This document shows positions 1,283 to 57,542 of a DNA stretch of 64,000 bases, piece by piece. A model generated the notes under the pieces. It was given only the letters and a program-made list of their open reading frames with translations. It searched no databases and was not told the DNA's origin. A program made the translations under genes and the position numbers. Positions within the stretch are counted from its first letter, which is position 1, and the number at the start of each line of letters is the position of its first letter. This DNA comes from Aquilaria yunnanensis (taxonomy: Eukaryota; Streptophyta; Magnoliopsida; Malvales; Thymelaeaceae): positions 40,036,492 to 40,100,491 of the forward strand of contig CM077600.1 in the NCBI GenBank assembly GCA_039654915.1, written 5' to 3'.

Positions 1283-1831
1283 ATGGATCCTACTCTTTCT
1301 GTCTTACGAAAATATTTTCCTTCTCTCCCAATGAACATTCTCAAAAAGATCTACCAAGTTCGCTGTGAACGATTAAGAGTTCTGATGCACAAAGGAATCC
1401 CTGAAGATGTGCGGTGGTTAATCGAAGCCAAGGTTCGTCTGGCAGGTGAAATCACAGAGGCATTTGTGTCTCACATGCCTGGTATAGGCAAAAGCTTTTA
1501 TGCCAAAAAGCGAAGAGCGAAAAGGTTACAAGTCTGCCATAAATATGGACGGTGGACTTGTAATACTAAATGTCGTTCTTTAGGGATGATCTCTGATAAT
1601 CGAGAAGATAAAATACGATTCATTAAGAATGGCCTGAGTAAGGACTCGTTGGATGATATCCAATTGACTCTTGAGACGCATTCTTGTGGATCTGTGCAAC
1701 GTGAACTTCTTGGTTTATGGAGCATTTTTCATGAAGAACGAAACCGTTACAGTCCCGGGAATCTGACTGTAAATGACCCTGTTTGCCAGCTTGTAACAAA
1801 ACTGGATGGGAAGCAAATCCTCGACTCATAG
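1283..1831 (+). CDS. Gene A, element O: 182-aa carlavirus-NABP-like cysteine-rich protein, finger damaged
   Basis: An intronless 182-codon frame whose start matches the two other A copies. The N-terminal half is helical-looking (LRKYFPSLP, then LKKIYQVRCERLRVL). Around residues 66-84 comes GIGKSFYAKKRRAKRL, and after it a cysteine finger. The C-terminal half has a conserved THSCG and a PVCQLV segment. Small protein, basic arginine stretch and Cys finger together resemble the nucleic-acid-binding proteins at the 3' end of carlavirus genomes (Pfam Carla_C4 / Viral_NABP), which bind RNA and are reported silencing suppressors. That assignment is from pattern, not a search. Oddity: the second finger cysteine is tyrosine here (CHKY, TAT for TGT), unlike the copies at 10429 and 57791, so metal binding is probably lost. 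The 5' leader is related to that of gene B, showing tandem duplication with regulatory DNA. Confidence 0.7.
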   Translation: MDPTLSVLRKYFPSLPMNILKKIYQVRCERLRVLMHKGIPEDVRWLIEAKVRLAGEITEAFVSHMPGIGKSFYAKKRRAKRLQVCHKYGRWTCNTKCRSLGMISDNREDKIRFIKNGLSKDSLDDIQLTLETHSCGSVQRELLGLWSIFHEERNRYSPGNLTVNDPVCQLVTKLDGKQILDS

Positions 1832-2119: not shown

Positions 2120-2668
2120 ATGGATTCTACTCTTTCTGCACTGTGAAAATACTTTCCTTCCCTTCCAATAAAAGTCCTTAAAAAGATCTACCTTGCTAGA
2201 TGTGAAAGAATCAGAGTTTTTACACGCAAAGGCATTCCCGATAATGTGCAGTGGATAATTGAAGCTAAGGTCCGTCTGGCAGGTGAAGTTTCAGATGCAT
2301 TTATGCCCCGCATGCCCGGTTTAGGTAAAAGCCGTTATGCCAAAAGGCGAAGAGCAAAGAGACTAGGCATGTGTTATAAATGTGGGCGATGGAATTGTAA
2401 TACTAAATGTCGCTCTTTAGGATACATCTCCATAAATCATGAAGATAAAAGAAAATTCATTAAGAATGGCTTGCGTAAGGAATCTCTGGAAGATATCCGA
2501 GAGACTCTTGAAACGCATTCTTGTGGAAAAGTGCAAGGTGAAATTATCGGTTTATGGAGGACTTACCATAAAGAACGAAACCGTTACAGTCTTGGGAATG
2601 TGACTTTAAACGACCCTGTTTGTCAATTTGTAAGAAAACTGGATGGGAAGCAAATCCCCGACTTATAG
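2120..2668 (+). pseudogene. Gene B, element O: NABP-like, early stop
   Basis: Same 549-base length as intact B copies at 11266 and 56994, with ATG at 2120. Codon 9 is TGA (2144-2146) where the intact copies have CGA, the change expected from deamination of a methylated cytosine. The rest stays open to 2668, including YAKRRRAKRLGMC and the finger CYKCGRWNCNTKC with all four cysteines. An internal ATG at 2246 could only give an N-truncated 140-residue product. Leader and spacer match those of B in element I closely. Confidence 0.8.
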
Positions 2669-2910: not shown

Positions 2911-3201
2911 TGTTGACACCCAATTTCGTCCGACCTTCATTAATTTTTTTTAAATTAAAAAAAAATTTATTAATTAAAAATTAATTAAAAAAAATTAATT
3001 AAATTAAAACTAAATCAAAAATAAAATAATATTATTATATATTTATTGATAAAAATTAGTGTAGGAGGGGACATTTTTATTTTATAAGTTTAGTCAAAAA
3101 ATAATAATATATTTGTTTGTGTGTGTTAATTAAAATTAAAAAAAAAATAGTTAATTAAATAATTAAAAAAATTAATAATAAAATAAAATAAAAATCTCCC
3201 C

Positions 3202-3228
3202 CTCCAGAGACTTCCAGGCTCTCTGGAG
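3202..3228. repeat. Inverted repeat in U3 of element I LTR
   Basis: CTCCAGAGA and TCTCTGGAG are perfect inverted arms of 9 bases separated by 9 bases. They lie just before the CT-rich promoter-like stretch and are repeated in the 3' LTR near 18751-18777. Confidence 0.6.
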
Positions 3229-4093
3229 CCTTCTGGCTTCTCTTTTTCTTTTCTATTTAGCAGCCGACACTCTCGCCCTCAATCAGGTTCGCTCTCTCTC
3301 TCCCACACGGCTCTCTCTTCTCGCCCTCTCCAGATCCTTCTTTTCCCCCTTTTTAACGACTTCTCTCCCTCCACCAGAGATAAAAACCATCTTCTCCCTA
3401 CCCACAACACCAACTACTGTCCATTTTTCTCCCTCTACATACCAACTCTCCGGTCTCTCTCTCTCTCAAAAAAAAAAAAAAACTCTCTTCTCTCTCCCTG
3501 AACCAACTCTCTCTCTCTACAGAGCTCGCCTGCTCTCGATTCTTTCTCTTCTCTCAAACCCGACGTTTCTGGCCGTCCACCTCGCCGCCCAAGTCACGTC
3601 TTCCCTGCCAATCACACATTCCCAGCCCTCGCGTCTCCTCTGCTGTCCGTTCGCGCCCGATCGCATCACTCCAGGCCATCCTCCATCGCGCGTCTCGGCC
3701 ATCGCCTGGCTCCCGCTGTGTCGCCCAGCCCGTCACGTCGCCCAACTCCTTCTTTCTCACCGGAATTTTTACTCTCTCCCTGCTCGCCGTCATACCGTGA
3801 GGCCATCATCGTCGTGCTCCCATCAGAGCTCATCTCCAACCGCCGCACGTTCTCCTTGACACCGTCCTCCGTCCCTTGCCCCGCTGCCGTTCACGCCCCC
3901 TCCCGTCGCCGTCCGACACCACTCTAGCCTCCTTTCCCGTCGTAGTCGTTGTCTGACGCATCATCGTTCGTCTCCGTCGCAACGCCGCCGTCGCCTCCAG
4001 CCACCTCCCCCTGTGCTCCTTTGCTGCTGTGCAACAGAGGAAGAAGAAGACACGTTTTTTCGATTTGACCAAGTCAAAATTTAAAAATTTGGA

Positions 4094-4165
4094 GTAAAAT
4101 TCTCATTTAATCCTTAGTAATCTTTATTTATCCATCCAAGTCACTAACTTTCTTTTATTTTGCAG
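4094..4165 (+). other. Possible leader intron inside LTR of element I
   Basis: GTAAAATTC at 4094 and a pyrimidine-rich TTATTTTGCAG ending at 4165 could be splice sites. Sites giving introns of 75-76 bases occur at the same relative place in diverged LTRs: O 25389-25464, R 28808-28883 (minus), M 51228-51302 (minus). Confidence 0.4.
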
Positions 4166-5016
4166 ATCAGTCACCGACAACAAGCTTTTTGTTTCTTTAT
4201 TTGTTTGTTTTGCTATGCCTCAAACTTAGCTATTAAATTTATTTGTTTAAGACGGTTTGATATACGAACTGATCAGAGTTGTTTTCTGTTGTTGATGAGC
4301 CGAGACACAGGGGGTGGATACGTATGGCTAATATGCATCTTACTTGGTAGTGCTTCATGAGTTGAATTTTGATATAGAAATTTGATACCCGGATGCAATT
4401 ATATCAGTTTATTGTACCCTTTAAAATCAGTAGATCAGTTTCAGAATTACGGGTGTTTATTCAAAAAAAAAAATGAATGATAAAATTCTGAGATTTCGAG
4501 GATGTCTATATCCATGACCGGGTGATCTGGTAAGATCCATGGCTTGGATAATTATTTAAAAATATTTTAAAACAATAAAAAATATATAAAAGGGGATTTA
4601 TGAAAATCCTTAGAAGATAATCACCGCACCACTCGACAAGCCCAGCACTGATCGCTGATCAATCGCCCACTGCCGAACGATATCAAAACAGGACAAAAAT
4701 CTGTTCTGGAATCCATAGCTCTGTTAAAAGTCGACTCAAATCTCGGTACAATTCCTCTTATATTCTTCAACTTTTCTATTTCACATCAGTTACTAACTTT
4801 ACTAACAATTAACTGTTATTATTATTATTATCATTATTGGTTGTATCTTCTATTTTTTAAGTGGATAGTCAAAAAGCACCACTTTATTTTTATTTTTTAT
4901 TTTTTATTTTTTATTTTTTTATTTTTTTATTGTCCTTTAATTTTCTCTTATTTACTTTATGTGCTTTTTATTTGTTTATTTATTTACATATGTTATTTAA
5001 TTTGTGCAAAATTTTT

Positions 5017-5042
5017 AAGTGGATGGCCAAAAAGCCCCACTT
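5017..5042. repeat. Conserved LTR stem-loop
   Basis: AAGTGGATGGCC and GCCCCACTT can pair around a short A-rich loop. The motif is kept in every LTR of the window: 20552-20577, 25709-25734, 28485-28510 (reverse), 50649-50674 (reverse) and 63836-63861 (reverse), even where flanking sequence has diverged. A diverged copy lies at about 4859-4885. Confidence 0.6.
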
Positions 5043-5689
5043 TATTCTTTATTTATTGACCTTTATTTACTTGTATGTAATTGTTTGTTTTACATAGCTG
5101 ATTAAACTTATTTTCACTTTTAGCTATAAAAAATAAAATAACAACAAAGCAATAAGAAGAATTTTTTTTTTTGTGAATAATTAACTTTATTTTAGGACTA
5201 ATCAAGAATCCATTTTTATTACCGAGCCCCAATCCTTTGTTTTCTTTCATATTTTTAAACATTAATTGGAATATTAAAACGTATCCTTTTTATTTCCTCA
5301 AAAAAAAAAATAAAAAAAAATAAAAAAAATAATAACAAAAATTCAACCTTTTGTTTTTCCTTTTTATAAAAAAATCATAACCAAACAATTCCACAAAAAT
5401 CAATTATTTTTAAGTATATTTTTAGACCCAAAGATTAGATAATTTTTTTAAAAATCTTTCAAAAAGAAAGAATGGAAAATAAAATTTTAGACAACATTTT
5501 TTCCAAAATTCCATAAAAATTTATGACAAAAAGAATAATAATTAATTAAATAATGAATAATAAATTAAAGATTTTTAATAAATTTTTATTATCAAATTTT
5601 AAATGAATAAAATTAAGATAAAAATCCATATTATGATAATCCTCCGGGATTCATGATATGGAAATTAAAGTATTTAATTAAAATTTCGT

Positions 5690-5830
5690 CAAATTCCGTG
5701 TCCGGGTGACCCGGCAGAGTCCATGGTTCGGAATTAAAAATTCCGTGTCCGGGTGACTCGGTAGAGTCCATGGTTCGGAAATAAAGCTTTCGTGTCCGGG
5801 TGACTCGGCAGAGTCCATGGTTCGGAAATA
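5690..5830 (+). repeat. Tandem hairpin-prone units in element I LTR
   Basis: Three units of about 50 bases contain CCGTGTCCGGGTGACTCGG and GAGTCCATGGTTCGG. Within each, ACTC-GGCA-GAGT and flanking CCG...CGG can pair. Related single units lie at about 4519, 26134, 26922, 27045-27130, 28040 (reverse) and 49885-49975 (reverse). Confidence 0.6.
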
Positions 5831-6101
5831 TCAAATTTTATCCAAATTAACTTAAAAATCCACATTTCGACATAATTCAGTTAAAATTTCTATTTTTGAA
5901 AATTAACTGAAAATTATTTAAATGCAAAGCAAAACAAAATTAAAATCAACTAAGGTGCCAATTTTGGGCGCTATAACAAAGTTGTTTTAGCGTAACCGTA
6001 CTCCCGATCCCCGAACTCTCGCAGACCAATTTTAAGGTGACCAATCGACCTAGGTGAAACAGATTGGTGGCGACTCCCGAAAACCCGACGTTGCCACAGC
6101 T

Positions 6102-6119
6102 TGGCGACTCCACTGGGGA
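6102..6119 (+). other. Primer binding site of element I (tRNA-Arg type)
   Basis: TGGCGACTCCACTGGGGA starts three bases after the LTR. Its complement, ending GGAGTCGCCA, fits the 3' end of a plant tRNA-Arg with one mismatch, the primer type known for Tat/Ogre elements. Confidence 0.75.
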
Positions 6120-10428: not shown

Positions 10429-10977
10429 ATGGATCCTACTCTTTCTGTCTTACGAAAATATTTTCCTTCTCTTCCAATGAACATCCTTAAAAAGATCTAC
10501 CGAGTTCGCTGTGAACGATTAAGAGCTTTGATGCACAAAGGAATACCTGAAGATGTACGGTGGTTAATCGAAGCCAAGGTTCATCTGGCAGGTGAAATCC
10601 CAGAGACATTTGTGTCTTACATGCCTGGTGTTGGCAAAAGTTCTTATGCTAGAAAAAGAAGAGCGAAAAGATTACAAGTCTGCCATAAATGTGGTAGGTG
10701 GACTTGTAAGACTAGGTGTCATTCTTTAGGAATGATCTCCAATAATCGAGAAGATAAAATACGGTTCATCAAGAATGGCTTGAGTAAGGACTCATTGGAT
10801 GATATCCAATTGACTCTTGAGACACATTCTTGTGGATCTGTGCAACGTGAAATTCTTGGTTTATGGAGTATTTTTCATGAAGAACGAAACCGTTACAGTC
10901 CCGGGAATCTGACTGTAAATGACCCTGTTTGCCAGCTTGTAACAAAACTGGATGGGAAGCAAATCCTCGACTCATAG
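10429..10977 (+). CDS. Gene A, element I: 182-aa carlavirus-NABP-like protein, intact
   Basis: An unbroken 182-codon frame with the same start context (AGAAAATGGATCC) as the other A copies. The basic stretch here reads SYARKRRAKRLQVC, and the finger CHKCGRWTCKTRC keeps all four cysteines (C-x2-C-x4-C-x3-C), followed by a hydrophobic and charged region with FIKNGLSKDSLDDIQLTLET. The family's likely role is nucleic-acid binding, by resemblance to carlavirus cysteine-rich proteins. It has no introns and no signal or membrane segments. The A leader resembles B and C leaders, but the TATA position reads ATCAAAAT, so A may depend on the upstream TGACGTCA-like repeats or read-through from the LTR. 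A different origin, such as a plant zinc-finger family, is possible. Confidence 0.75.
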   Translation: MDPTLSVLRKYFPSLPMNILKKIYRVRCERLRALMHKGIPEDVRWLIEAKVHLAGEIPETFVSYMPGVGKSSYARKRRAKRLQVCHKCGRWTCKTRCHSLGMISNNREDKIRFIKNGLSKDSLDDIQLTLETHSCGSVQREILGLWSIFHEERNRYSPGNLTVNDPVCQLVTKLDGKQILDS

Positions 10978-11265
10978 AAGCCGTTAATGCCGTTACTGGA
11001 CGTAAAACCAGTGGAAGATGTGAGCCACAGTCACAATTACTGTACATACAGTTTGTTATATTTGGAAAAGTTTACATTTTCTTTTGACAGATGTACATGC
11101 TCCCCTAAGTGTAATCGACACGTTATCCCTTTTCATCACCATAAATGCGTGTTCTTCCTTCTAATTAAGCAGCGGATAAGATACCCCGTGACTTCTAAAG
11201 TCGGTTATTCCAGTCTCCTACAATAACTGATTCATTCCCTCTCCTCTCAAATTCTTCTCTCATAA

Positions 11266-11814
11266 ATGGATTCTACTCTTTCTGCACTGCGAAAATACTT
11301 TCCTTCCCTTCCAATAAAAGTCCTTAAAAAGATCTACCTTGCTAGATGTGAAAGAATCAGAGTTTTTACACGCAAAGGCATTCCCGATAATGTGCAGTGG
11401 ATAATTGAAGCTAAGGTCCGTCTGGCAGGTGAAGTTCCAGATGCATTTATGCCCCGCATGCCCGGTTTAGGTAAAAGCCGTTATGCCAAAAGGCGAAGAG
11501 CAAAGAGACTAGGCGTGTGTTATAAATGTGGGCGATGGAATTGTAATATTAAATGTCGCTCTTTAGGATACATCTCCATAAATCGTGAAGATAAAAGAAA
11601 ATTCATTAAGAATGGCCTGCGTAAGGAATCTCTGGAAGATATCCGAGAGACTCTTGAAACGCATTCTTGTGGAAAAGTGCAAGGTGAAATTATCGGTTTA
11701 TGGAGGACTTACCATAAAGAACGAAACCGTTACAGTCTTGGGAATGTGACTTTAAACGACCCTGTTTCTCAGTTTGTAAGAAAACTGGATGGGAAGCAAA
11801 TCCCCGACTTATAG
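11266..11814 (+). CDS. Gene B, element I: 182-aa NABP-like protein, intact
   Basis: Open for 182 codons from MDSTLSALRKYFPSLP to KQIPDL. Contains SRYAKRRRAKRLGVC and finger CYKCGRWNCNIKC, all four cysteines present. It is a tandem paralogue of A and C in the same element: equal length, same domain order, and a spacer of about 290 bases carrying the shared CACAGTCACAATTACTGTACA block. The TATA element is degraded to CATAAAT at about 11140, so expression may be weak. Codon 9 is CGA, the codon that became a stop in the element O copy. Confidence 0.75.
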   Translation: MDSTLSALRKYFPSLPIKVLKKIYLARCERIRVFTRKGIPDNVQWIIEAKVRLAGEVPDAFMPRMPGLGKSRYAKRRRAKRLGVCYKCGRWNCNIKCRSLGYISINREDKRKFIKNGLRKESLEDIRETLETHSCGKVQGEIIGLWRTYHKERNRYSLGNVTLNDPVSQFVRKLDGKQIPDL

Positions 11815-11964
11815 AAAGCATTGAAGCCATTATTGGACATAAATCAGTGGAAGATGAGAGCCACGGTCATGATTCCTGTACATATAAGCTGTCATTTGGC
11901 TTTTCTTTTGACAATAATGTACTTGCTTCTGTAAGTGTAATTAACGCATTATCCCTTTTATCAC

Positions 11965-11972
11965 TATAAATA
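11965..11972 (+). promoter_or_regulatory. TATA box of gene C, element I
   Basis: CACTATAAATATG is 66 bases before the C start, the same spacing as in element O. Confidence 0.55.
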
Positions 11973-12030
11973 TGTGTTAGTTATTATCGTTTCCTACAAT
12001 CACTAATTTCTTTCTTTGCCTCCTTCATCA

Positions 12031-12324
12031 ATGGAGTCTTCTCTTTCCGCCCTACGAAAGTATTTTCCTTCCTTCCCAATAAATGTTCTTAAAAAGATTT
12101 ATCAAGCTAGATGTGAACGATTCAGAGTATTTATGCACAAAGGCATTCCTGATAATGTGCGGTGGCTAATTGAAGCTAAGGTTCGTTCAGCTGGTGAAGT
12201 TCCAGAAGCGTTCTTTCCCCGTATGCCCGGCTTTGGTAAAAGCGCTTATGCCAAAAAAAGAAGAGCAAAGAGGCTAGGCGTTTGTCATAATTGTGGATGG
12301 TGGATTTGCGCTTTTAAATGCTGA
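12031..12324 (+). pseudogene. Gene C, element I: truncated by deletion into LOG
   Basis: Starts MESSLSALRKYFPSFP like intact C. It runs through YAKKRRAKRLGVCHNC and stops just after GWWIC, where the sequence jumps to the middle of the LOG gene at about 12310. Compared with element O, about 1.16 kb (roughly 21884-23043) is missing, including the C 3' half, the LOG promoter and the LOG 5' half. The junction shares only a couple of bases between partners, as in end-joining. The resulting short chimera keeps the basic stretch and three finger cysteines, with a fourth supplied by chance from LOG DNA. Confidence 0.85.
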
Positions 12325-12640
12325 TGCTTTTATCGCTCTACCAGGTGATTTTGGCACATTGGGAGAAGTCTTTCAAATTGCTTCCATGGCCCAACTTAAT
12401 TTGCATAAGAAACCCATTGGGCTTTTAAATGTTAACAATTTCTTTACAGGTCTGATAGCTTTTATGGATTATGCTATGCAGAAGAATTTCATATCAAGAG
12501 TGGCACGGCAAATTATAATATCCGCAACAACTGCTGAAGAATTGCTAGATAAAATACAAGCTTTTGTTCCTGAACCAGATCCAGCAATGATTCAGATAGA
12601 CTGGACACGACAGTCTTTCCCGACCAGTTCACTCCCATAA
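12311..12640 (+). pseudogene. LOG-like gene, element I: 3' fragment
   Basis: Only the C-terminal half remains, beginning LLNADAFIALPG and ending at the same codons as the full copies (SFPTSSLP). The nucleotide-binding motif is additionally altered: PGDFGTLGE where the other copies have PGGFGTLGE. An accidental in-frame ATG at 12293 lies in gene C sequence. The 3' flank to about 13008 matches that of the other LOG copies. Confidence 0.85.
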
Positions 12641-15745: not shown

Positions 15746-15930
15746 TCCGTTCCCTTTACATAATTTGTCAGTGTTATTGTCATCATCAAGATTCACTCGT
15801 TTTATCGAAGCCTAATTCTTTGCGCTCGCCTATTATGAAAATTCACACTTTCGAAGAAAATTATTCCAATTTCAATTGCTTTCATATAAATTTCGCTCGA
15901 GGTCCTAAGGAAAGCTCCTTAGCCTCATAA
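15746..15930 (+). other. Interior between solo LTR and minisatellite, element I
   Basis: Matches 23740-23925 of O and the reverse of 54475-54655 in M. It begins with the right copy of the TCCGT duplication and ends with the founder-like hairpin GGTCCTAAGGAAAGCTCCTTAG. No gene. Confidence 0.6.
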
Positions 15931-18360: not shown

Positions 18361-18446
18361 AGGCGACGAGAAAATTCTCGATGCCTACCTAAAGTCAGAC
18401 GAAATTTGGTAACGACTTTGCATGCGTCATGTCCCATGAGGCATGC

Positions 18447-18459
18447 AAAGGGGGGCAGC
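18447..18459 (+). other. Polypurine tract of element I
   Basis: AAAGGGGGGCAGC immediately precedes the 3' LTR. Equivalent tracts lie at 24616-24628 (O) and 52190-52202 (M, minus). Confidence 0.8.
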
Positions 18460-21400
18460 TGTTGACACCCAATTTCGTCCGACCTTCATTAATTTTTTTT
18501 AAATTAAAAAAAAATTATTAATTAAAAATTAATTTAAAAATAAATTAATTAAATTAAAACTAAATCAAAAATAAAATAATATTATTATATATTTATTGAT
18601 AAAAATTAGTGTAGGAGGGGACATTTTTATTTTATAAGTTTAGTCAAAAAATAATAATATATTTGTTTGTGTGTGTTAATTAAAATTAAAAAAAAATTAG
18701 TTAATTAAATAATTAAAAAAATTAATAATAAAATAAAATAAAAATCTCCCCTTCCAGAGACTTCCAGGCTCTCTGGAGCCTTCTGGCTTCTCCTTTTCTT
18801 TTCTATTTAGCAGCCGACACTCTCGCCCTCAATCAGGTTCGCTCTCTCTCTCCCACACGGCTCTCTCTTCTCGCCCTCTCCAGATCCTTCTTTTCCCCCT
18901 TTTTAACGACTTCTCTCCCTCCACCAGAGATAAAAACCATCTTCTCCCTACCCACAACACCAACTACTGTCCATTTTTCTCCCTCTACATACCAACTCTC
19001 CGGTCTCTCTCTCTCTCCAGAAAAAAAAAACTCTCTTCTCTCTCCCTGAACCAACTCTCTCTCTCTACAGAGCTCGCCTGCTCTCGATTCTTTCTCTTCT
19101 CTCAAACCCGACGTTTCTGGCCGTCCACCTCGCCGCCCAAGTCACGTCTTCCCTGCCAGTCACGCCTTCCCAGCCCTCGCGTCTCCTCTGCTGTCCGTTC
19201 GCGCCCGATCGCATCACTCCAGGCCATCCTCCATCGCGCGTCTCGGCCATCGCCTGGCTCCCGCTGTGTCGCCCAGCCCGTCGCGTCGCCCAACTCCTTC
19301 TTTCTCACGGGAATTTTTACTCTCTCCCTGCTCGCCGTCATACCGTGAGGCCATCATCGTCGTGCTCCCATCAGAGCTCATCTCCAGCCGCCGCACGTTC
19401 TCCTTGACACCGTCCTCCGTCCCTTGCCCCGCTGCCGTTCACGCCCCCTCCCGTCGCCGTCCGACACCACTCTAGCCTTCTTTCCCGTTGTAGTCGTTGT
19501 CTGACGCATCATCGTTCGTCTCCGTCGCAACGCCGCCGTCGCCTCCAGCCACCTCCCCCTGTGCTCCTTTGCTGCTGTGCAACAGAGGAAGAAGAAGACA
19601 CATTTTTTCGATTTGACCAAGTCAAAATTTAAAAATTTGGAGTAAAATTCTCATTTAATCCTTAGTAATCTTTATTTATCCATCCAAGTCACTAACTTTC
19701 TTTTATTTTGCAGATCAGTCACCGACAACAAGCTTTTTGTTTCTTTATTTATTTGTTTTGCTATGCCTCAAACTTAGCTATTAAATTTATTTGTTTAAGA
19801 CGGTTTGATATACGAACTGATCAGAGTTGTTTTCTGTTGTTGATGAGCCGAGACACAGGGGGTGGATACGTATGGCTAATATGCATCTTACTTGGTAGTG
19901 CTTCATGAGTTGAATTTTGATATAGAAATTTGATACCCGGATGCAATTATATCAGTTTATTGTACCCTTTAAAATCAGTAGATCAGTTTCAGAATTACGG
20001 GTGTTTATTCAAAAAAAAAAAATGAATGATAAAATTCTGAGATTTCGGGGATGTCTATATCCATGACCGGGTGATCTGGTAAGATCCATGACTTGGATAA
20101 TTATTTAAAAATATTTTAAAACAATAAAAAATATATAAAAGGGGATTTATGAAAATCCTTAGAAGATAATCACCGCACCACTCGACAAGCCCAGCACTGA
20201 TCGCTGATCAATCGCCCACTGCCGAACGATATCAAAACAGGACAAAAATCTGTTCTGGAATCCATAGCTCTGTTAAAAGTCGACTCAAATCTCGGTACAA
20301 TTCCTCTTATATTCTTCAACTTTTCTATTTCACATCAGTTACTAACTTTACTAACAATTAACTGTTATTATTATTATTATCATTATTGGTTGTATCTTCT
20401 ATTTTTTAAGTGGATAGTCAAAAAGCACCACTTTATTTTTATTTTTTATTTTTTTATTTATTTATTGTCCTTTAATTTTCTCTTATTTACTTTATGTGCT
20501 TTTTATTTGTTTATTTATTTACATATGTTATTTAATTTGTGCAAAATTTTTAAGTGGATGGCCAAAAAGCCCCACTTTATTCTTTATTTATTGACCTTTA
20601 TTTACTTGTATGTAATTGTTTGTTTTACATAGCTGATTAAACTTATTTTCACTTTTAGCTATAAAAAATAAAATAACAACAAAGCAATAAGAAGAATTTT
20701 TTTTTTGTGAATAATTAACTTTATTTTAGGACTAATCAAGAATCCATTTTTATTACCAAGCCCCAATCCTTTGTTTTCTTTCATATTTTTAAACATTAAT
20801 TGGAATATTAAAACGTATCCTTTTTATTTCCTCAAAAAAAAAAAATAAAAATAAAAAAAATAATAACAAAAATTCAACCTTTTGTTTTTCCTTTTTATAA
20901 AAAATCATAACCAAACAATTCCACAAAAATCAATTATTTTTAAGTATATTTTTAGACCCAAAGATTAGATAATTTTTTTAAAAATCTTTCAAAAAGAAAG
21001 AATGGAAAATAAAATTTTAGACAACATTTTTTCCAAAATTCCATAAAAATTTATGACAAAAAGAATAATAATTAATTAAATAATGAATAATAAATTAAAG
21101 ATTTTTAATAAATTTTTATTATCAAATTTTAAATGAATAAAATTAAGATAAAAATCCATATTATGATAATCCTCCGGGATTCATGATATGGAAATTAAAG
21201 TATTTAATTAAAATTTCGTCAAATTCCGTGTCCGGGTGACTCGGCAGAGTCCATGGTTCGGAATTAAAAATTCCGTGTCTGGGTGACTCGGTAGAGTCCA
21301 TGGTTCGGAAATAAAGCTTTCGTGTCCGGGTGACTCGGCAGAGTCCATGGTTCGGAAATATCAAATTTTATCCAAATTAACTTAAAAATCCACATTTCGA

Positions 21401-21628
21401 CATAATTCAGTTAAAATTTCTATTTTTGAAAATTAACTGAAAATTATTTAAATGCAAAGGAAAACAAAATTAAAATCAACTAAGGTGCCAATTTTGGGCG
21501 CTATAACAAAGTTGTTTTAGCGTAACCGTACTCCCGATCCCCGAACTCTCGCAGACCAATTTTAAGGTGACCAATCGACCTAGGTGAAACAGATTAGTGG
21601 CGACTCCCGAAAACCCGACGTTGCCACA
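18460..21628 (+). repeat. 3' LTR of element I
   Basis: 3169 bases, nearly identical to 2911-6098, with differences mainly in A/T runs and the T-rich stretch near 20440. Ends TTGCCACA, followed by the CTACG duplication. Confidence 0.9.
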
Positions 21629-21633
21629 CTACG
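21629..21633 (+). repeat. Target site duplication of element I, right copy
   Basis: CTACG, the original gene C sequence. Its partner is CTAAG at 2906-2910. Confidence 0.85.
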
Positions 21634-22179
21634 AAAGTATTTTCCTTCCTTCCCAATAAATGTTCTTAAAAAGATTTATCAAGCTAGATGTGAACGATTC
21701 AGAGTATTTATGCACAAAGGCATTCCTGATAATGTGCGATGGCTAATTGAAGCTAAGGTTCGTTCAGCTGGTGAAGTTCCAGAAGTGTTCTTTCCCCGTA
21801 TGCTCGGCTTTGGTAAAAGCGCTTATGCCAAAAAAAGAAGAGCAAAGAGGCTAGGCGTTTGTCATAATTGTGGATGGTGGATTTGCGGCAATAAATGTCG
21901 TTCTCCAGGAGTGATCACCAGAAATCGTAATGATAGAATAAGATTCATTAAGAATGGCTTGCGTAAGGAATCTCTGGAAGATATCCGAGAGGTTCTTGAA
22001 GCGCATTCTTGCGGAATAGTGCAATTTGAGGTTGTTGGATTATGGATAATTTTCCAAAAAGAATGAGATCGTTATAGTCTTGGGAATCTGACATTAAACG
22101 ACCCTGTTTGCCAGTTTGTGAGAAAGCTAGATGAGATGCAAATCACCGATTCATAGAAAGCATTGAAGCCATTACTGGA

Positions 22180-22655: not shown

Positions 22656-22703
22656 AATGTATCCATTCTTGAAAATAAAATTATTGCCTTATCTCTTCAT
22701 CTC

Positions 22704-22710
22704 TATAAAT
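22704..22710 (+). promoter_or_regulatory. TATA box of LOG-like gene, element O
   Basis: CTCTATAAATATATCC lies 40 bases before the ATG at 22744 and downstream of the earlier in-frame ATG at 22657. This supports 22744 as the start. Conserved in M. Confidence 0.6.
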
Positions 22711-22743
22711 ATATCCTCTTTTCTCACAAGGGTAAGGATAGGA

Positions 22744-23373
22744 ATGGAGAAAACCCCAACTCGTAAATCCCGAAGTATTTGTGTATTTTCTGGGGCATTT
22801 CCTGGAAAAGATGAAGAGTATTTAAAGGCAGCCAACCCTTTGGGTAGAGTATTAGCTGAGCGAAAAATACATTTAGTTTATGGAGGAGGTAGTGTCGGAT
22901 TAATGGGAGGTGTAACATTAGCAGCATCTTTAGGAGGAAGTCAAGTTTTGGGCATCATCCCTGGACCTTTGAAATTTGTTTCTGGGGGCACGATTGGAGA
23001 AGAATTAGTGGTTAAAAATTTGCAAGAGCGTGTGTTACAAATGCTTTTAAATGCTGATGCTTTTATCGCTCTACCAGGTGGTTTTGGCACATTGGGAGAA
23101 GTCTTTCAAATTGCTTCCATGGCCCAACTTAATTTGCATAAGAAACCCATTAGGCTTTTGAATGTTAACAATTTCTTTACAGGTCTGATAGCTTTTGTGG
23201 ATTATGCTATGCAGAAAAATTTCATATCAAGAGTGTCACGACGAATTATAATATCCGCAACAACTGCTGAAGAATTGCTAGATAAAATACAAGCTTTTGT
23301 TCCTGAACCAGATCCAGCAATAATTCAGATAGACTGGACACGACAGTCTTTCCCGACCAGTTCACTCCCATAA
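22744..23373 (+). CDS. LOG-like cytokinin riboside 5'-monophosphate phosphoribohydrolase, element O
   Basis: 209 codons, intronless. LOG-family (lysine decarboxylase-like) enzymes release active cytokinin bases from cytokinin nucleotides. Visible family features: ICVFSGAFPGK near the N terminus (canonical plant LOGs have CGSS here), VYGGGSVGLMGG (about residues 47-58), GTIGE, an arginine in NLQERVLQML where LOGs have MHxRKA, and the PGGFGTLGE nucleotide motif with its glutamate; later HKKPIRLLNV and IIISATTAEELL. Usual LOG length is about 210-220. The MHxRK lysine and CGSS are changed, so activity is uncertain. Plant LOG genes normally have several introns, so this looks like a retrocopy captured through mRNA. 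The start was chosen after the TATA box. All gene C lesions lie upstream and do not affect it. Confidence 0.85.
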   Translation: MEKTPTRKSRSICVFSGAFPGKDEEYLKAANPLGRVLAERKIHLVYGGGSVGLMGGVTLAASLGGSQVLGIIPGPLKFVSGGTIGEELVVKNLQERVLQMLLNADAFIALPGGFGTLGEVFQIASMAQLNLHKKPIRLLNVNNFFTGLIAFVDYAMQKNFISRVSRRIIISATTAEELLDKIQAFVPEPDPAIIQIDWTRQSFPTSSLP

Positions 23374-24615: not shown

Positions 24616-24628
24616 AAAGGGGGGCAGT
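24616..24628 (+). other. Polypurine tract of element O
   Basis: AAAGGGGGGCAGT adjoins the LTR start TGTTGACACC at 24629. Confidence 0.8.
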
Positions 24629-27407
24629 TGTTGACACCCAATTTCGTCCGACCATAAAAAATTTTTTTAAAAGAAATTAAATAAAAGAAATTAAAAAATT
24701 ATTATTTTTATTATTATTATTATTACTAAAAATTTTAATTAGTTTAAAATACATTTTTGTTTTGTGAAGATTTGATTTAAAATGATATATGTGTGTATTT
24801 GAAAGAAAAAAAGAAAACTCCAAAAAAAATGGCAAAATTTAAAAGTTTGAGGTAAAAATGACAAAATTAAGAAGTTTCAGGCAAAATTGACAAATTCTGA
24901 AAGTTCCAGGAGCATTTAGTAGTTTGTCACATAAAATTTTGAGCCTGCCGACGTTTCTGGCCCAAATTGACAGAAAACGACAAAATTGTCAAAATCAGAA
25001 GCTTCAGGAACTTATCCAGAGGCTGAGAGACGTAAAGGACTAAAATTGTCATTTTACCAATTTAAGAGATAAGTTTGAAATTTTTTATTAATTTATCCAT
25101 CAACAGTTCATCTAAACTTCCTCTATAAATAGCCCCCCAAATTTTGTGCTGAACACAGAAAAAAATAGAGGAAAAGCTTAGAGCTCCGTTTTAGGAAAAG
25201 AAAAAATTACAGCTAAAAGTCCCTGGCTCTCCTTCCTTTTCCCAGAAAATCCTAAAACTTCCATCTGTTTACATAAACACCATCTTCTTCCTCTTTCTGC
25301 CAATTTTTTTCCCATACCCCGTCGCCGTTTCCAGTTTTTTTTTTTTCGCGTTTTTCGTCCCAGGAAATTCAAAAATTTTAACTTTCAGGTAAAACTCATC
25401 TTTAGTCCTTTATCTTTTCAATTTCTTTCTCTTTGGTTACTAACCTTTTATTTTGTTCTTGCAGAAAGAAAAAAACTAATTACTAACTCTTTTAATCTTT
25501 ATTTGTTTATTTATTATTTATTGTTGTTATTATTGCTAACTTTTTATTCTTGTTATTATTGTTACTAACCTTACTAACCTTTTATTATTGTTATAATTGT
25601 TACTAACTTACTAACTTACTAACCTTTTATTTTTACTATTGTTATTAACAACTAACTTTACTAACTTTGCTAATTTTTATTATTGTTGCTATTATTATTG
25701 TGTTATTAAAGTGGATGGCCAAAAAACCCCACTTTATTATTATTAATTGTCTATCTTTTTTTTGTGATTAAATTTATTTCACTTTTAATTTTTTATAAAA
25801 TAATAATAATAATAAAAAGAAAGAAGAATTTTATGTATAATTATTAAGGCTAATAAAAATCATTTTTAGAAAAAGCTAATTATCTTTTATTATTTTGGAA
25901 TACAAGTTTTTTATTATTTAACTTTTTATTCCTTTTATTAAAATTAAATAAACATAAGTAAATAATCACAAAACAAAAAATAAAAAAATACAAATCATTT
26001 CTTTTTAAATATATCTTTACAAGTAGCAATAATTAAAATTTAATAAAAACAATAATAAAAATCCAATAAAATTATGATTAAGTTTAATAATTAATTAAAT
26101 AATTAAAAATTAGAATTTAATAAAAATTAAACTCCATGTCCAAATGATCTACCAGGATCTAATGGTTTGGAGAATTAAAATTTTTTTAAAAAAAATATAA
26201 AATATAAAATTAATTTTAATAGTTATTTTTTTTATTCAGTAAAAATAATAAAAATTAAAACAAAATCTTTCTTTAATAAAAGAAGCATATGAAAAATGAA
26301 AACTTTTCTTTTATGTTTAAAATATACATATAAATTTTTGGTTTTCTTTATTAAATAAATAAAATCTTAATTAAATAATTACTTTTGGTTAATCTTTTAT
26401 TCAAAATAAATTATATAAATATCAAGACTTTTTCTTTTATTTTTAATATACATATAAATCCTTAGTTTTTTTTAATAAAATCTTGATTAAATAATTACTT
26501 TTTGATTATTCTTTTATCAAATAAATAGAATAAACATAAAATAAATGTCAACTCTTTAATTTCTTTAAAGATTTTTTATATTAAATCTTTAAAAATTACT
26601 TTTTGATTCTTTTATAAATTGAGTAATTATTTAAATAATAAATATCTTTCATTAAACAAATAATCTTTCAAAACAAAACTAAAAGAAAAAAAAAAGTAAA
26701 AGAAAAGAAAAGAAAAGAAAAGAAAGAAAAGAAAGAAAAGTAAAAGAAAGAAAAGAAGAACAAGCAAAAGAATAAACAAAAATTGAAAAATAAGAAAAAC
26801 AAAAGAAAAATATAAAATATAAAAAAAAAAAGGGAAATGAATAAATTTTTTTTAGTCAACATTAAAAGATCCTTAACAATTAATTTTATAATTAAATAAT
26901 TAACAAATAAATTAAATTAATTTCCATATCCGGATGATCCGGCAGGATCTACGGTTTGGAAAATATCAAACTTTCAAAATAAATAAATTAAATAAAAAGA
27001 TAAAAATCCAAATTTTTACGATATGGATTAAAATTTTGTCAAATTCCGTGTCCGGGTGACTCGGCAAAGTCCATGGTTCGGAGTTAAATCTTCCGTGTCC
27101 AGGTGACTCGGCAGAGTCCATGGTTCGGAAGTATCAAATTTTATCCGAACTAATTACCAAAAATCCACATCCAATTAAATAATTTCAGTTGAAATTTATG
27201 TGTTGAAAATTAACTGAATTTTTTTTAAAAGCAAAGCAAAAACAAAAAATTAAAATCAACTAAGGTGCCAATTTTGGGCGCTATAACAAAGTTGTTTTAG
27301 CGTAACCGTACTGCCGATCCCCTAACTCTCGCAGACCAATTTTAAGGTGACCAATCGACCTAAGAAAATTGATTGGTGGCGACTCCAAAAACCCGCACGT
27401 TGCCACA
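24629..27407 (+). repeat. 3' LTR of element O
   Basis: 2779 bases. Ends match the family, but the middle differs strongly from element I LTRs and resembles R and M. A TATA box (CTCTATAAATAGCC, TATAAATA 25124-25131) predicts transcription start near 25155. A possible intron lies at 25389-25464. The rest is AT-rich with no gene, including an AAAG-repeat tract at 26680-26830 and hairpin units at 27045-27130. Confidence 0.85.
25124..25131 (+). promoter_or_regulatory. LTR TATA box, element O
   Basis: TATAAATA, with matching sites in R (29364-29371, minus) and M (51670-51677, minus), all followed by a C-rich run. Confidence 0.65.
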
Positions 27408-49619: not shown

Positions 49620-52189
49620 TGTGGCAACGTCGGGTTTTCGGGAGTCGCCACCAATCTGTTTCACCTAGGTTGATTGGACACCTTAAAATTGGTCTGCGAG
49701 AGTTCGGGGATCGGGAGTATGGTTACGCTAAAACAACTTTGTTATAGCGCCCAAAATTGGCACCTTAGTTGATTTTAATTTTGTTTTGCTTTGCTTTTAG
49801 AAAATATTCAGTTAATTTTCAAACTAGAAATTTTAACTGAATTAATCGGATGCAGATTTTTAAATTAATTTATATAAAATTTGATACTTCCGAACCATGG
49901 ACTCTGCCGAGTCATTTGGACACGGAAGATTTTGATTCCGAACCATGGACTCTGCCGAGTCATTTGGACACGGAATTTTGGTGAAATTTTAAACAATTTT
50001 ATCCATATTGTAAAAAATATGGATTTTTATCTTTTTATTTAATTTATTTATTTTAAAAAGTTTGATATTTTCCAAACCGTAGATCCTGCTGGATCATCCG
50101 GATATGGAAATTACTTTAATTAATTGTTAGTTATATAATTATTATTTTTATGGAATTTATTATTACTAATTTGTAAGTCTTTTGTTTTTAGATTTATTAA
50201 TAATCTAAAAAATTTATTTTTTATTCTTTACACTTTCTTTTCTTTTCTTTCTTTTCTTTCTTTTTGATTTTATCTTTCTTTTAGTTTTATTTTTCCTTTC
50301 TTTTTTTTCTTTTCTTTTTCTTTTCTTTCTTTTCTTTCTTTCTTTTCTTTTTTTATCTTTTCTTTTTCTTTTCTTTCTTTTCTTTTTTTATCTTTTCTTT
50401 TTTTATCTTTTTCTTATCTTTCTTATCTTTTTCTTATATTTCTTTTAGTTTTTTTTTTAGTGAAAGTTATTTATTATTTAAATAATTATTCAATTTATAA
50501 AAGAAAAATAAAAATAATTGGCTTTTAAAAAAATTATTTTTATTAGGCTTAAAAAATAATCTTCTTTTAATTTTCATTTATTTATTTAAGTAAGGGTAAA
50601 GGTGAATTAAATTAAAAAAAATTATATAAAGGAAAATTAATAATAATAAAGTGGGGCTTTTTGGCCATCCACTTTAAAAATAAATAATAATAAAGGTTAG
50701 CAAAGTTAATTAAATTAATTAACAACAATAATAAAAATTAGCCAAGTTTAATTAAATTAATTGATTAACAACAATAATAAAAAGTTAGTCAAGTTAATTA
50801 AATTAATTGATTAACAACAATAATAAAAAGTTAGTCAAGTTAATTAAATTAATTAATTAACAACAATAATAAAAAGTTAGTCAAGTTAATTAAATTAATT
50901 AATTAACAACAATAATAAAAAGTTAGTCAAGTTAATTAAATTAATTAATTAACAACAATAAAAGTTAGCCAAGTTAATTAAATTAATTAACAACAATAAT
51001 AAAAAGTTAGCCAAGTTAATTAAATTAATTAATTAACAACAATAATAAAAAGTTAATTAATTGTTAACAACAATTATAAAAGTTAGTAATAATGCAAAAA
51101 TTAAAAGGTTAGTAACAATAATAATATTAAAAGTTAGTTGTTAGTAAGTTAATAACAAAAAAAAAAGGGTTAGTAATAATAAGAAATAAGTAAAACAAGT
51201 AAAAATTAAAATAGTTAGGAATTAATTCTGCAAGAACAAAATAAAAGGTTAGTGACCAAAGTGAAAGAAATAAAAAAATAGAGGACAAAACAAGGGTTGT
51301 ACCCTTTAGTTTTAATTTTGAATTTTGCTGGGAACGTGAGAAACAGACGCGCGCGCAGGGGGGGAAGGAGGGGCAGCTGGCGGCGGGGCGGCAGCGCGGC
51401 CAGGGGCAGGTGGGGACGGCGCGACGGCAGCGTGGGGGAGTGATGAGCGGCGGCGGGACGGCGTGGAGCGACGGGCAGCGAAGGAGAAGGAAGAAACAGA
51501 AAAAAAACGGAGGAAGAAGATAGTCTATACGTCAGAATAGAAACTTTTGGGACTTTCTGGGAAAAGGAAAGAGGGCCAGGGACTAAGTCTGTAATTTTTA
51601 TTTTTTCTAAAACGGAGCTTTAAGCTTTCTGTCTATTTTTTTGTGTGTTCAGCACAAAATTTGGGGGGCTATTTATAGAGGAAGTTTAGCTGAACTGTTG
51701 ATGGATAAATTAATAAAAAATTTCAAACTTATCTCTTAAATTGGTAAAATGACAATTTTAGTCCTTTACGTCTCTCAGCCTCTGGATAAGTTCCTGAAGC
51801 TTTTGATTTTGACAATTTTGTCGTTTTCTGTCAATTTGAGCCAAAAACGTCGGCAGGCTCAAAATTTTATGTGACAAACTACCAAATGCTCCTGGAACTT
51901 TCAGAATTTGTCAATTTTGCCTGAAACTTCTCAATTTTGTTATTTTTATCTCAAACTTTTTAATTTTGTCATTTTTATGGAGTTTTCTTTTTTTCTTTCA
52001 AACATACACATATACACACATATATCAAATCTTCACAAAACAAAACAAAAAAATATATTTTAAACTAATTAAAAAAAATTTTAGTAATAATAATAACAAT
52101 AATAATAATAATACATTTTTTTATTTAATTTTTTTTTATTTAATTTTTTTAAAATTATTTTAATGGCCGGACGAAATTGGGTGTCAACA
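49620..52189 (-). repeat. 3' LTR of element M
   Basis: 2570 bases, ends TGTGGCAACG and GGTGTCAACA on the plus strand. Includes hairpin units 49885-49975, a TTTC-type microsatellite 50225-50450, stem-loop 50649-50674, tandem TTAATTAAATTAATT-type repeats 50690-51070, possible intron 51228-51302, a GC-rich leader 51345-51480, and TATA 51670-51677. Confidence 0.9.
51670..51677 (-). promoter_or_regulatory. LTR TATA box, element M
   Basis: TATAAATA on the minus strand in the context CTCTATAAATAGCCCCCC, the same as in O. Confidence 0.65.
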
Positions 52190-52202
52190 GCTGCCCCCCT
52201 TT
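52190..52202 (-). other. Polypurine tract of element M
   Basis: AAAGGGGGGCAGC on the minus strand, directly before the 3' LTR. Confidence 0.8.
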
Positions 52203-55011: not shown

Positions 55012-55641
55012 TTATGGGAGTGAACTGGTCGGGAAAGACTGTCGTGTCCAGTCTATCTGAATCATTGCTGGATCTGGTTCAGGAACAAAAGCTTGTATTT
55101 TATCTAGCAATTCTTCAGCAGTTGTTGCGGATATTATGATTCGCCGTGCCACTCTTGATATGAAATTCTTCTGCATAGCATAATCCATAAAAGCTATCAG
55201 ACCTGTAAAGAAATTGTTAACATTTAAAAGCCCAATGGGTTTCTTATGCAAATTAAGTTGGGCCATGGAAGCAATTTGAAAGACTTCTCCCAATGTGCCA
55301 AAACCACCTGGTAGAGCGATAAAAGCATCAGCATTTAAAAGCATTTGTAACACACGCTCTTGCAAATTTTTAACCACTAATTCTTCTCCAATCGTGCCCC
55401 CAGAAACAAATTTCAAAGGTCCAGGGATGATGCCCAAAACTTGACTTCCTCCTAAAGATGCTGCTGATGCTACACCTCCCATTAATTCGACACTACCTCC
55501 TCCATAAACTAAATGTATTTTTCGCTCAGCTAATACTCTACCCAAATGGTTGGCTGCCTTTAAATACTCTTCATCTTTTCCAGGAAAAGCCCCAGAAAAT
55601 ACACAAATACTTCGGGATTTACGAGTTGGGGTTTTCTCCAT
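55012..55641 (-). CDS. LOG-like cytokinin riboside 5'-monophosphate phosphoribohydrolase, element M
   Basis: 209 codons from MEKTPTRKSRS to SFPTSSLP, intronless, and nearly identical to 22744-23373. Retains PGGFGTLGE and the arginine in NLQERV. In the glycine-rich motif it reads VYGGGSVELMGG where O has VYGGGSVGLMGG. LOG enzymes keep the second glycine strictly, so this copy may be impaired. O instead has PIRLLNV where M and plant LOGs have PIGLLNV. The start follows a TATA box (CTCTATAAATATATCC at about 55668-55683). Predicted cytosolic. It may be a retrocopy of a host LOG. Confidence 0.85.
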   Translation of the reverse strand: MEKTPTRKSRSICVFSGAFPGKDEEYLKAANHLGRVLAERKIHLVYGGGSVELMGGVASAASLGGSQVLGIIPGPLKFVSGGTIGEELVVKNLQERVLQMLLNADAFIALPGGFGTLGEVFQIASMAQLNLHKKPIGLLNVNNFFTGLIAFMDYAMQKNFISRVARRIIISATTAEELLDKIQAFVPEPDPAMIQIDWTRQSFPTSSLP

Positions 55642-55739
55642 TCCTATTCTTACCCTTGTGAGAAAAGAGGATATATTTATAGAGATGAAGAGATAAGGCA
55701 ATAATTTTATTTTCAAGAATGAATACATTATTGCCAGCT

Positions 55740-56228: not shown

Positions 56229-56777
56229 CTATGAATCGGTGATTTGCATCTCATCTAGCTTTCTCACAAACTGGCAAACAGGGTCGTTTAGGGTCAGATT
56301 CCCAAGACTGTAACGTTCTCGTTCTTTTTGGAAAATTATCCATAATCCAACAACCTCAAATTGCACTATTCCGCAAGAATGCGCTTCAAGAACCTCTCGA
56401 ATATCTTCTAGAGATTCCTTACGCAAGCCATTCTTAATGAATTTTATTCTATCATTACGATTTCTGGTGATCACTCCTGGAGCACGACATTTATTGCTGC
56501 AAATCCACCATCCACAATTATGACAAACGCCTAGCCTCTTTGCTCTTCTTTTTTTGGCATAAACGCTTTTACCAAAGCCGGGCATACGGGGAAAGAACGC
56601 TTCGGGAACTTCACCAGCTGAACGAACCTTAACTTCAATTAGCCACCGCACATTATCAGGAATGCCTTTGTGCATAAATACTCTGAATCGTTCACATCTA
56701 GCTTGATAAATCTTTTTAAGAACATTTATTGGGAAGGAAGGAAAATACTTTCGTAGGGCGGAAAGAGAAGACTCCAT
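56229..56777 (-). CDS. Gene C, element M: 182-aa NABP-like protein, intact
   Basis: 182 codons from MESSLSALRKYFPSFP to DEMQITDS. It is the only uninterrupted C copy in the window. Features: SVYAKKRRAKRLGVC, finger CHNCGWWICSNKC with four cysteines, FIKNGLRKESLEDIREVLEA and a PVCQFV segment near the end. An ATG five codons upstream (56792) exists, but alignment with A and B, which start MDPTLS and MDSTLS, supports 56777. A TATA box with TATTTATAG on the plus strand lies near 56836-56844. Family assignment is as for gene A: resemblance to carlavirus cysteine-rich nucleic-acid-binding proteins. Confidence 0.75.
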   Translation of the reverse strand: MESSLSALRKYFPSFPINVLKKIYQARCERFRVFMHKGIPDNVRWLIEVKVRSAGEVPEAFFPRMPGFGKSVYAKKRRAKRLGVCHNCGWWICSNKCRAPGVITRNRNDRIKFIKNGLRKESLEDIREVLEAHSCGIVQFEVVGLWIIFQKERERYSLGNLTLNDPVCQFVRKLDEMQITDS

Positions 56778-56993: not shown

Positions 56994-57542
56994 CTATAAG
57001 TCGGGGATTTGCTTCCCATCCAGTTTTCTCACAAACTGGCAAACAGGGTCATTAAAAGTTAGATTTCCAAGACTGTAACGATCCTGTTCTTTACGGAAAG
57101 TCCACCATAAATCCATAATTTCCCATTGCACTATTTCACAAGAATGTGTTTCAAAAGTTAATAGGATATCATCCAAAGATTCCTTACGCAGGCCATTCTT
57201 GATGAATTTTCTTTTATCTTCATGATTTCTGGAGATGTATCCTAAAAAGCGACATTTAGTATTACAATTCCATCGTCCACATTTATGACAGACACCTAGC
57301 CTCTTTGCTCTTCGCTTTTTGGCATAAGCGCTTTTACCAAAGCCGGGCATACGGGGAAAGAACGCTTCTGGAACTTCAACAGCTGAACGAACCTTAGCTT
57401 CAATTAGCCACCGCACATTATCAGGAATGCCTTTGTGCATAAAAACTCTGATTCTTTCACATCTAGCAAGGTAGATCTTTTTAAGGACTTTTATTGGAAG
57501 AGAAGGAAAGTATTTTCGCAGGGTAGAAAGAGTAGAATCCAT
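56994..57542 (-). CDS. Gene B, element M: 182-aa NABP-like protein, mosaic with C
   Basis: Open for 182 codons, starting MDSTLSTLRKYFPSLP and ending KQIPDL like other B copies. The middle (about residues 33-88, plus-strand 57285-57450) matches gene C rather than B: VFMHKGIPDNVRWLIEAKV and FFPRMPGFGKSAYAKKRR replace VFTRKGIPDNVQWIIEAKV and FMPRMPGLGKSRYAKRRR of element I. The finger CHKCGRWNCNTKC is complete. This points to gene conversion from C. The 3' half has further private changes such as TFETHSCEIVQWEIMDLW. Confidence 0.75.
   Translation of the reverse strand: MDSTLSTLRKYFPSLPIKVLKKIYLARCERIRVFMHKGIPDNVRWLIEAKVRSAVEVPEAFFPRMPGFGKSAYAKKRRAKRLGVCHKCGRWNCNTKCRFLGYISRNHEDKRKFIKNGLRKESLDDILLTFETHSCEIVQWEIMDLWWTFRKEQDRYSLGNLTFNDPVCQFVRKLDGKQIPDL

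Follow-up and report, generated by a model that had tools for sequence, protein, structure and literature searches.

The cassette and its elements

We analysed a stretch of 64,000 nucleotides from the plant Aquilaria yunnanensis (C8:40036492-40100491 of the 842-Mb genome; hereafter the window), which holds three relatives of one long terminal repeat (LTR) element family. We call these elements O, I and M. O and I lie on the plus strand and M on the minus strand, and the 5' part of O lies outside the window. Each of them carries, in sense orientation, the same ordered cassette: A, B and C, whose intact open reading frames (ORFs) encode 182-aa proteins resembling viral nucleic-acid-binding proteins (NABPs), followed by a LOG gene. 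All four genes are intact in M only. A first-pass annotation of the window had described this shared order, together with family LTRs and a polypurine tract (PPT) in all three elements and a primer site in I and M, and each of these can be seen directly. I has been inserted into the C gene of O, where it is flanked by a 5-bp target duplication with one mismatch (CTAAG/CTACG). Within I, a deletion junction at 12309/12310 fuses C, out of frame, to the terminal part of LOG (12310-12637). The genes of the cassette are the following.

1283..1831, plus: A of O, intact (ORF; Pfam)
2303..2668, plus: B of O, 5' part, ended by an early stop (ORF)
10429..10977, plus: A of I, NABP-like, 182 aa, intact (Viral_NABP 4e-06, Carla_C4 4.2e-06)
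11266..11814, plus: B of I, NABP-like, 182 aa, intact (Viral_NABP 1e-07, Carla_C4 2.2e-05)
12031..12324, plus: C of I, shortened to 97 aa (junction 12309/12310 by comparison with M)
12310..12640, plus: LOG 3' fragment of I (97-99% to O and M DNA; open frame 12278-12637)
21629..22066, plus: C of O, 3' part, separated by the insertion of I, terminates early (ORF; DNA comparison)
22657..23373, plus: LOG of O, 238 aa, intronless (Lysine_decarbox 1.5e-28)
55012..55728, minus: LOG of M, 238 aa, intronless (ORF; Pfam, PDB, NCBIfam)
56229..56777, minus: C of M, intact (ORF; Pfam; TATA-like box 66 bp 5' of ATG)
56994..57542, minus: B of M, intact (ORF; Pfam)
57791..58339, minus: A of M, intact (ORF; Pfam)

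C has a TATA-like box 66 bp upstream in both I and M, and B of M has one 87 bp upstream. None was found at a comparable distance 5' of A or LOG, nor of B in I. Separate transcripts for the cassette genes are possible.

The hallmarks of LTR retrotransposons are present: paired LTRs (in I, and partly in M), a primer site, a PPT and a target duplication. The family LTRs have the termini TGTTGACACCC...CGTTGCCACA, and the PPT AAAGGGGGG precedes the 3' LTR in all three elements. The primer-site sequence follows directly after the 5' LTR in I and M, with one base differing in M. It may be of the tRNA-Arg type, as in the Ogre-like elements of the Tat clade.

2911..6098, plus: 5' LTR of I (TGTTGACACCC...GTTGCCACA), about 3.2 kb
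6099..6119, plus: primer-site region of I, immediately 3' of the 5' LTR
18447..18455, plus: polypurine tract of I
18460..21628, plus: 3' LTR of I, about 3.2 kb; target duplication CTAAG/CTACG inside C of O
24629..27407, plus: 3' LTR of O; PPT at 24616
49620..52189, minus: 3' LTR of M; PPT at 52202
62806..64000, minus: 5' LTR of M, runs past the window edge

The two LTRs of I differ at 25 of 3166 sites. Since this corresponds to a Kimura two-parameter (K2P) distance of 0.0079, I is a young insertion. The 5' and 3' LTRs of M differ at 8 of 1184 sites.

When matches of at least 180 nt are counted, the similarity of the LTRs of I to those of O and M (2911-5737 against 49979-52189) is limited to some 360 bp at the 3' end plus a short stretch at the start, as if U3 had been exchanged. 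Minisatellite arrays with units of 47, 51, 73 and 86 nt (15743-18368 and 52295-54497) lie between LOG and the 3' LTR, and they are common to window-type elements and to the autonomous elements described below. I also contains a 2.7-kb insert (13009-15743) between its LOG fragment and the minisatellites, which M does not have. The insert begins with TGTAATGCCCGG, ends with CATGACA, has TCCGT on either flank (by eye) and looks like a solo LTR of a different element.

Kinship of A, B and C with viral proteins

All six intact 182-aa ORFs of the window exceed the curated Pfam cut-offs for both Viral_NABP (E-values of 1e-07 to 2.5e-05) and Carla_C4 (1.3e-06 to 3e-04). A of O gives the lowest Carla_C4 match, 0.2 bits above the cut-off. 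The kinship with NABPs proposed in the first-pass annotation is upheld by this check. Among 80 aligned family members, 73 match Viral_NABP and 70 match Carla_C4 at E <= 1e-3. The Viral_NABP match region lies within residues 30-122 and covers a basic KKRRAKR stretch and a Cys finger. KKRRAKR stands directly before the first Cys pair, that is, the basic motif adjoins the finger as it does in carlavirus NABPs. Carlavirus-like, as the annotation had it, is an apt description of this arrangement but not of the Cys spacing, which is CX2CX4CX3C. Of the 120 listed relatives, 105 share this finger; additional N- and C-terminal ends are conserved in the 182-aa proteins and aligned relatives.

A chance match through basic composition is ruled out by controls made from the A protein, one reversed and four shuffled, none of which gave an NABP match. 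We also rejected a host zinc-finger gene, which the annotation had named as the finding that would speak against NABP kinship: only the two NABP models reached the Pfam cut-off, and no zinc-finger family did. The 2EXR model gave 13.6 bits for A of M, below its cut-off of 24.8. A PDB search with A of I at E <= 10 returned RSC8 as its sole match (E 1.3), and an NCBIfam search with A of M returned no match.

In a BFVD search with an AF2 model, silencing suppressors and NABPs of betaflexiviruses rank first (best E 0.009). The leading 26 rows include 22 named proteins, all of which we take to be from betaflexiviruses. Judged by their sequence, A, B and C are related to the NABPs of viruses, and they may share their function. 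The viral relatives are described as suppressors of local silencing, and p12 of chrysanthemum virus B (CVB) as a transcription factor that induces hyperplasia (PMC12172455, PMC3689765).

The LOG protein

That the fourth gene is a LOG, as first annotated, is confirmed by its match to TIGR00730 (146.5 bits vs a cut-off of 96.35) and to PDB entry 2a33 (E 1.7e-50). The match to the NCBIfam equivalog NF058542 has 98.3 bits, below the cut-off of 300. In an alignment of 20 LOG rows E148 is invariant and R125 is present in at least 90%, and the element LOG has both; we take these two to be catalytic residues.

A search for LOG relatives gave 7,447 matches. Among the 120 listed, one has 90% identity and most others have 55-63%. 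Reevesia pubescens contributes many separate loci to the list, and Paulownia fortunei, Xanthoceras and Populus several; this multiplicity of loci suggests mobile LOG copies in those other species too. In 98 of the 120 listed relatives (P0241-P0360) the last nine residues contain LxLxL, immediately preceded by two or more Lys/Arg (e.g., KRKLDLTLRL), presumably a form of the EAR repression motif. LOG of this genome has no terminal LxLxL; its C-terminus reads SFPTSSLP.

Copies across the genome

The cassette is not confined to the window. The A protein recurs with 97-100% identity at every one of the 150 scored places (the best 150 of 8,225 first-look candidates), and 147 of them are without internal stop. 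For LOG, 148 of 150 scored places have no internal stop, and element copies fill all 150. These counts are biased upward because only the best-scoring places are listed. A chance origin of the cassette ORFs is excluded, since A and LOG recur at 150 scored places, nearly all of them stop-free.

We surveyed gene order at 20 loci fetched from the best A matches. A-B-C-LOG is ordered on one strand at 18 of them, three of which (L014, L016 and L018) have an additional NABP copy. The exceptions are L019, which is short of one NABP, and L028, where nothing but A and an incomplete B is left. L021 has its LOG split in two. Seven listed LOG places lie within 0.46 Mb at C4:82295953-82757564, all on the minus strand, and one A place there is on the plus strand.

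Autonomous relatives

Searching with the end of M's 5' LTR plus primer site and leader gave 40 scored places, out of 3,255 candidates, at 95-100% identity. Four of the listed places, all on the plus strand, lie within 0.14 Mb at C8:60257177-60393163. We inspected six of the 40 places 4.5 kb downstream, and four of these regions (L031, L033, L035 and L036) encode reverse transcriptase (RT) and a G-patch domain. Retrotrans_gag was found in three of the four; a 253-aa ORF of L031 was outside the scan. The fifth, L034, is a window-type element. The sixth, L032, is a deletion intermediate: ahead of a window-type leader and A it retains a piece of gag, with 82% identity to the gag of L033.

Two of the RT-bearing elements were followed further downstream, and in both the order is RNase H, RVT_3 and integrase, with the cassette lying between integrase and the 3' LTR. 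The cassette is A-B-B-C-LOG in L037 and A-B-C-LOG in L038, and minisatellites are present as in the window elements. One autonomous-type element was traced to the same PPT and 3' LTR start; its internal region spans about 18.5 kb by coordinates. In L037, RT_RNaseH and then RVT_3 come before integrase, and in L038 they are spread over two ORFs. We take RVT_3 to be an additional RNase H (aRH). Because an additional RNase H domain defines the Tat clade of Ty3/gypsy elements (PMC6317226), the putative aRH places the element in that clade.

The G-patch domain sits between gag and RT in L031, L033, L035 and L036. The gap between the gag-side ORF and the RT ORF is about 200 nt and ends in a T-rich run plus TGCAG in L033 and L036. 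Ogre elements have an intron between protease and RT. A G-patch domain has been reported for some gypsy elements (PMC9289625).

The window elements present a different picture. Of 64 stop-free segments we scanned 40, from the internal region of M (sense strand, at least 45 aa) and the insert of I (both strands, at least 55 aa), and found no gag or pol domain; the other 24 lie in minisatellite arrays. A weak DUF1104 match was the sole domain match among the 40. The list of ORFs of at least 100 aa shows no further long pol-like ORF in O and the remainder of I, where the domain scan was not applied. The window copies seem to derive from a Tat-clade Ty3/gypsy element by loss of gag-pol; they share their LTR end and leader (96%) with gag-pol elements bearing the same cassette. 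The first-pass annotation had spoken of a non-autonomous family. This stands for the window copies, in which no gag or pol was detected, but not for the family, as the cassette is also present in both full gag-pol elements traced.

Selection on the cassette

LOG of M differs from that of L014 by 7 nonsynonymous and 31 synonymous changes, and from that of L018 by 8 and 30. The pooled ratio of nonsynonymous to synonymous differences per site (pN/pS) is 0.22 for A, 0.35 for B, 0.30 for C and 0.14 for LOG; in these counts the second NABP of L024 was assigned to A and that of L019 to C, by best score. Between autonomous and window-type copies the corresponding ratio of substitution rates (dN/dS) is 0.15-0.20 for A and 0.12-0.18 for C. 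This suggests that purifying selection has kept the cassette genes intact.

Relatives in other plants

We found 256 NABP-related proteins at E <= 0.01 among 306 candidates, and a second search gave 589 matches. The listed rows of both searches (120 each) are filled by plant proteins. Among 120 listed relatives, 77 have 178-186 aa, 34 are shorter and 9 are longer. The named sources are Populus, Xanthoceras and Parasponia, together with Striga, from which there is one partial protein. P0016 is a 90% cluster of 566 sequences, whose members may come from many samples. Two scans of IMG/VR viral contigs confirmed no NABP relative. In a tree of 110 rows, A, B and C of this genome form one supported clade with P0001 and P0005. 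Because of this grouping the triplication is, on the tree, specific to this lineage, and the trio would have arisen inside it from one older gene.

Do NABP and LOG genes travel together elsewhere? Among matches on contigs shorter than 100 kb (115 NABP and 62 LOG), 8 pairs fall on equal-sized contigs; 80 offset controls averaged 2.9 and never exceeded 7. For contigs longer than 2,000 nt there are 3 such cases vs 0.16 in controls. Two pairs stand out, at 8,723 and 4,511 nt, and 6 of the 8 pairs have a common source label. The LOG matches P0279 and P0280 fell outside the test; their contig sizes are far from those of the 41 longest NABP contigs checked. These results point to NABP-LOG linkage in other species.

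Two ORFs that lie between the elements of the window (36787-37248 and 38216-38518) are a possible host gene with an RS/KR-rich start. An Rfam search of the window gave no match.

Comparison with known systems

LTR retrotransposons with extra ORFs are already known; this gene set appears to be new. Our elements resemble the Tat clade (OTA) as described, in having gag-pol with an additional RNase H, a long internal region and ORFs between pol and the 3' LTR (PMC6317226, PMC11963269). They resemble Retand in having tandem repeats beyond pol, which are reported for about half of Retand elements (PMC11963269). The extra ORFs are in sense orientation here, 3-4 NABP-like genes plus LOG, whereas those described for Retand are antisense and mostly encode TRP28 proteins (PMC11963269).

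A LOG-family ORF inside an element is not peculiar to our family. Steinbauerova reportedly described LOGL4-like ORFs in two Athila-like elements in 2011. LOG/YgdH ORFs inside gypsy elements have been reported in Citrus and Populus, and our elements share with these a LOG-family ORF (PMC9289625). NABP, in contrast, is not among the domains named in the relevant section of that survey, whose full set of 15 is given in its figure; the survey used RT as its marker, and copies without gag-pol are therefore outside its coverage (PMC9289625). In the open-licence literature (subscription papers not covered) we found no report of NABP genes in LTR retrotransposons, and searching it by the Pfam names and accessions of the NABP families returned only glyoxalase surveys.

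The likeness to the NABPs of betaflexiviruses and the cysteine-rich proteins of carlaviruses lies in the basic motif beside the Cys finger, in the Pfam matches and in the top BFVD ranks. The differences are length (182 aa vs 97-139 aa for the complete named proteins in the top 17 BFVD rows), a finger of CX2CX4CX3C rather than CX2CX9CX4C, and the carrier, an LTR element instead of an RNA virus. Another comparable system is VANC of Arabidopsis, which is carried by VANDAL, a DNA transposon. Like VANC, the NABP-like proteins are proposed to be transposon-encoded anti-silencing proteins. The two proteins are unrelated, and the action of VANC has been shown experimentally, whereas here we infer it (PMC5735166).

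What the cassette may do

We consider it probable, if far from settled, that the cassette consists of accessory genes of a large Tat-clade Ty3/gypsy lineage, retained for aiding the element. Autonomous-type members of this lineage have coding regions for gag, a G-patch, RT, a pair of RNase H domains and integrase, followed by 3-4 tandem NABP-like genes and one LOG in sense orientation. The window elements would have lost gag-pol and kept LTRs, priming sites and cassette, and they would presumably be mobilised by the proteins of autonomous members. The 182-aa proteins may enter the nucleus by means of their KKRRAKR stretch and bind nucleic acid with the Cys finger. There they could make silencing of the element less effective or influence the transcription of host genes, like their betaflexivirus relatives. 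LOG would release active cytokinin and favour dividing, meristem-like cells, by which a new copy might reach the germ line.

Several observations weigh against this interpretation. None of the 120 listed relatives has the carlavirus Cys spacing (CX2CX9CX4C, with Potato virus H [PVH] as the reference; PMC3689765). The AF2 model is of low confidence (pLDDT 64.8, pTM 0.34), and none of the 63 BFVD matches reaches E 0.001. Because E never falls below that value and the TM-scores are about 0.2, the BFVD ranking mirrors residues and not fold. Work cited in PMC3689765 had CVB p12 failing to suppress local silencing, and because the reports on this protein conflict, not every viral relative seems clearly to be a suppressor. 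The activity of LOG is not assured either, because the element protein reads GTLGE where GTLEE is expected and is missing two residues that follow IPG in cellular LOG. A stop occurs in at least one match at 7 of the 20 surveyed loci. In L037 the second B and LOG are broken by a stop, and in L038 B lies in two frames and pol in two ORFs. Copies had to be full-length, ungapped and free of stops to enter the dN/dS counts, and synonymous changes could be overcounted through gene conversion. Finally, close pairs (synonymous divergence, dS, < 0.03) are weakly constrained, with ratios of 0.32-0.60. Weak constraint among near-identical pairs is what one would see if the majority of insertions decay and constraint acts on those lineages that spread.

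A more far-reaching version of the accessory-gene interpretation is possible, although we are inclined to doubt it. It would have a eudicot-wide Tat lineage in which a multi-copy suppressor homologue and a cytokinin enzyme disarm silencing and drive division. Genes may even have flowed from retrotransposon to virus, in which case carlaviruses and related viruses would owe their NABP suppressors to the element genes.

It is rather unlikely that the NABP-like proteins serve replication or packaging, as a second nucleocapsid, an RNA chaperone or a regulator comparable to the antisense proteins of the Tat clade, with no part in silencing suppression and with LOG as a separate passenger. A basic stretch and a Cys finger do fit RNA binding, a cis-acting or dosage function would agree with the presence of 3-4 copies and with their persistence in gag-less derivatives, and the antisense ORFs of Retand are predicted to bind DNA (PMC11963269). 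However, the kinship of A, B and C is specifically with betaflexivirus NABPs, several of which are tested suppressors, and a nucleocapsid is normally provided by gag-pol.

It is more unlikely still that the cassette genes are hitch-hikers, host or viral transcripts acquired once by an ancestor and amplified without benefit, for the following reasons. First, purifying selection is apparent between subfamilies and between autonomous and deleted elements. Second, 77 of the 120 listed relatives have kept a length of 178-186 aa, with conserved ends. Third, NABP and LOG share equal-sized contigs more often (8) than in any of the 80 controls (mean 2.9, maximum 7). This has to be set against the many broken copies (B and C in O, C and LOG in I, stops at 7 of 20 loci) and the intronless LOG, as would come from a captured mRNA. 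An ordinary endogenous viral element, i.e., a betaflexivirus NABP gene that entered the host genome, was carried into elements afterwards and has no bearing on their biology, is very improbable: the Pfam and BFVD matches do point to betaflexiviruses, and cucumber is reported to have a sequence resembling a betaflexivirus replicase (PMC3136472), but no second viral gene is seen alongside NABP, the extra N- and C-terminal parts are common to the relatives, and these occur in several plant orders.

How LTR retrotransposons of plants escape silencing is largely open. Some DNA transposons are known to have anti-silencing proteins. In the present case, a multi-copy family, with one young insertion in the window, keeps homologues of viral suppressors and a hormone enzyme under apparent selection. 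If the cassette genes are accessory genes of the kind that we propose, the idea of suppressors encoded by retrotransposons could be put to a direct test using small plant genes, and retroelements may turn out to be linked to how a family of virus genes arose.

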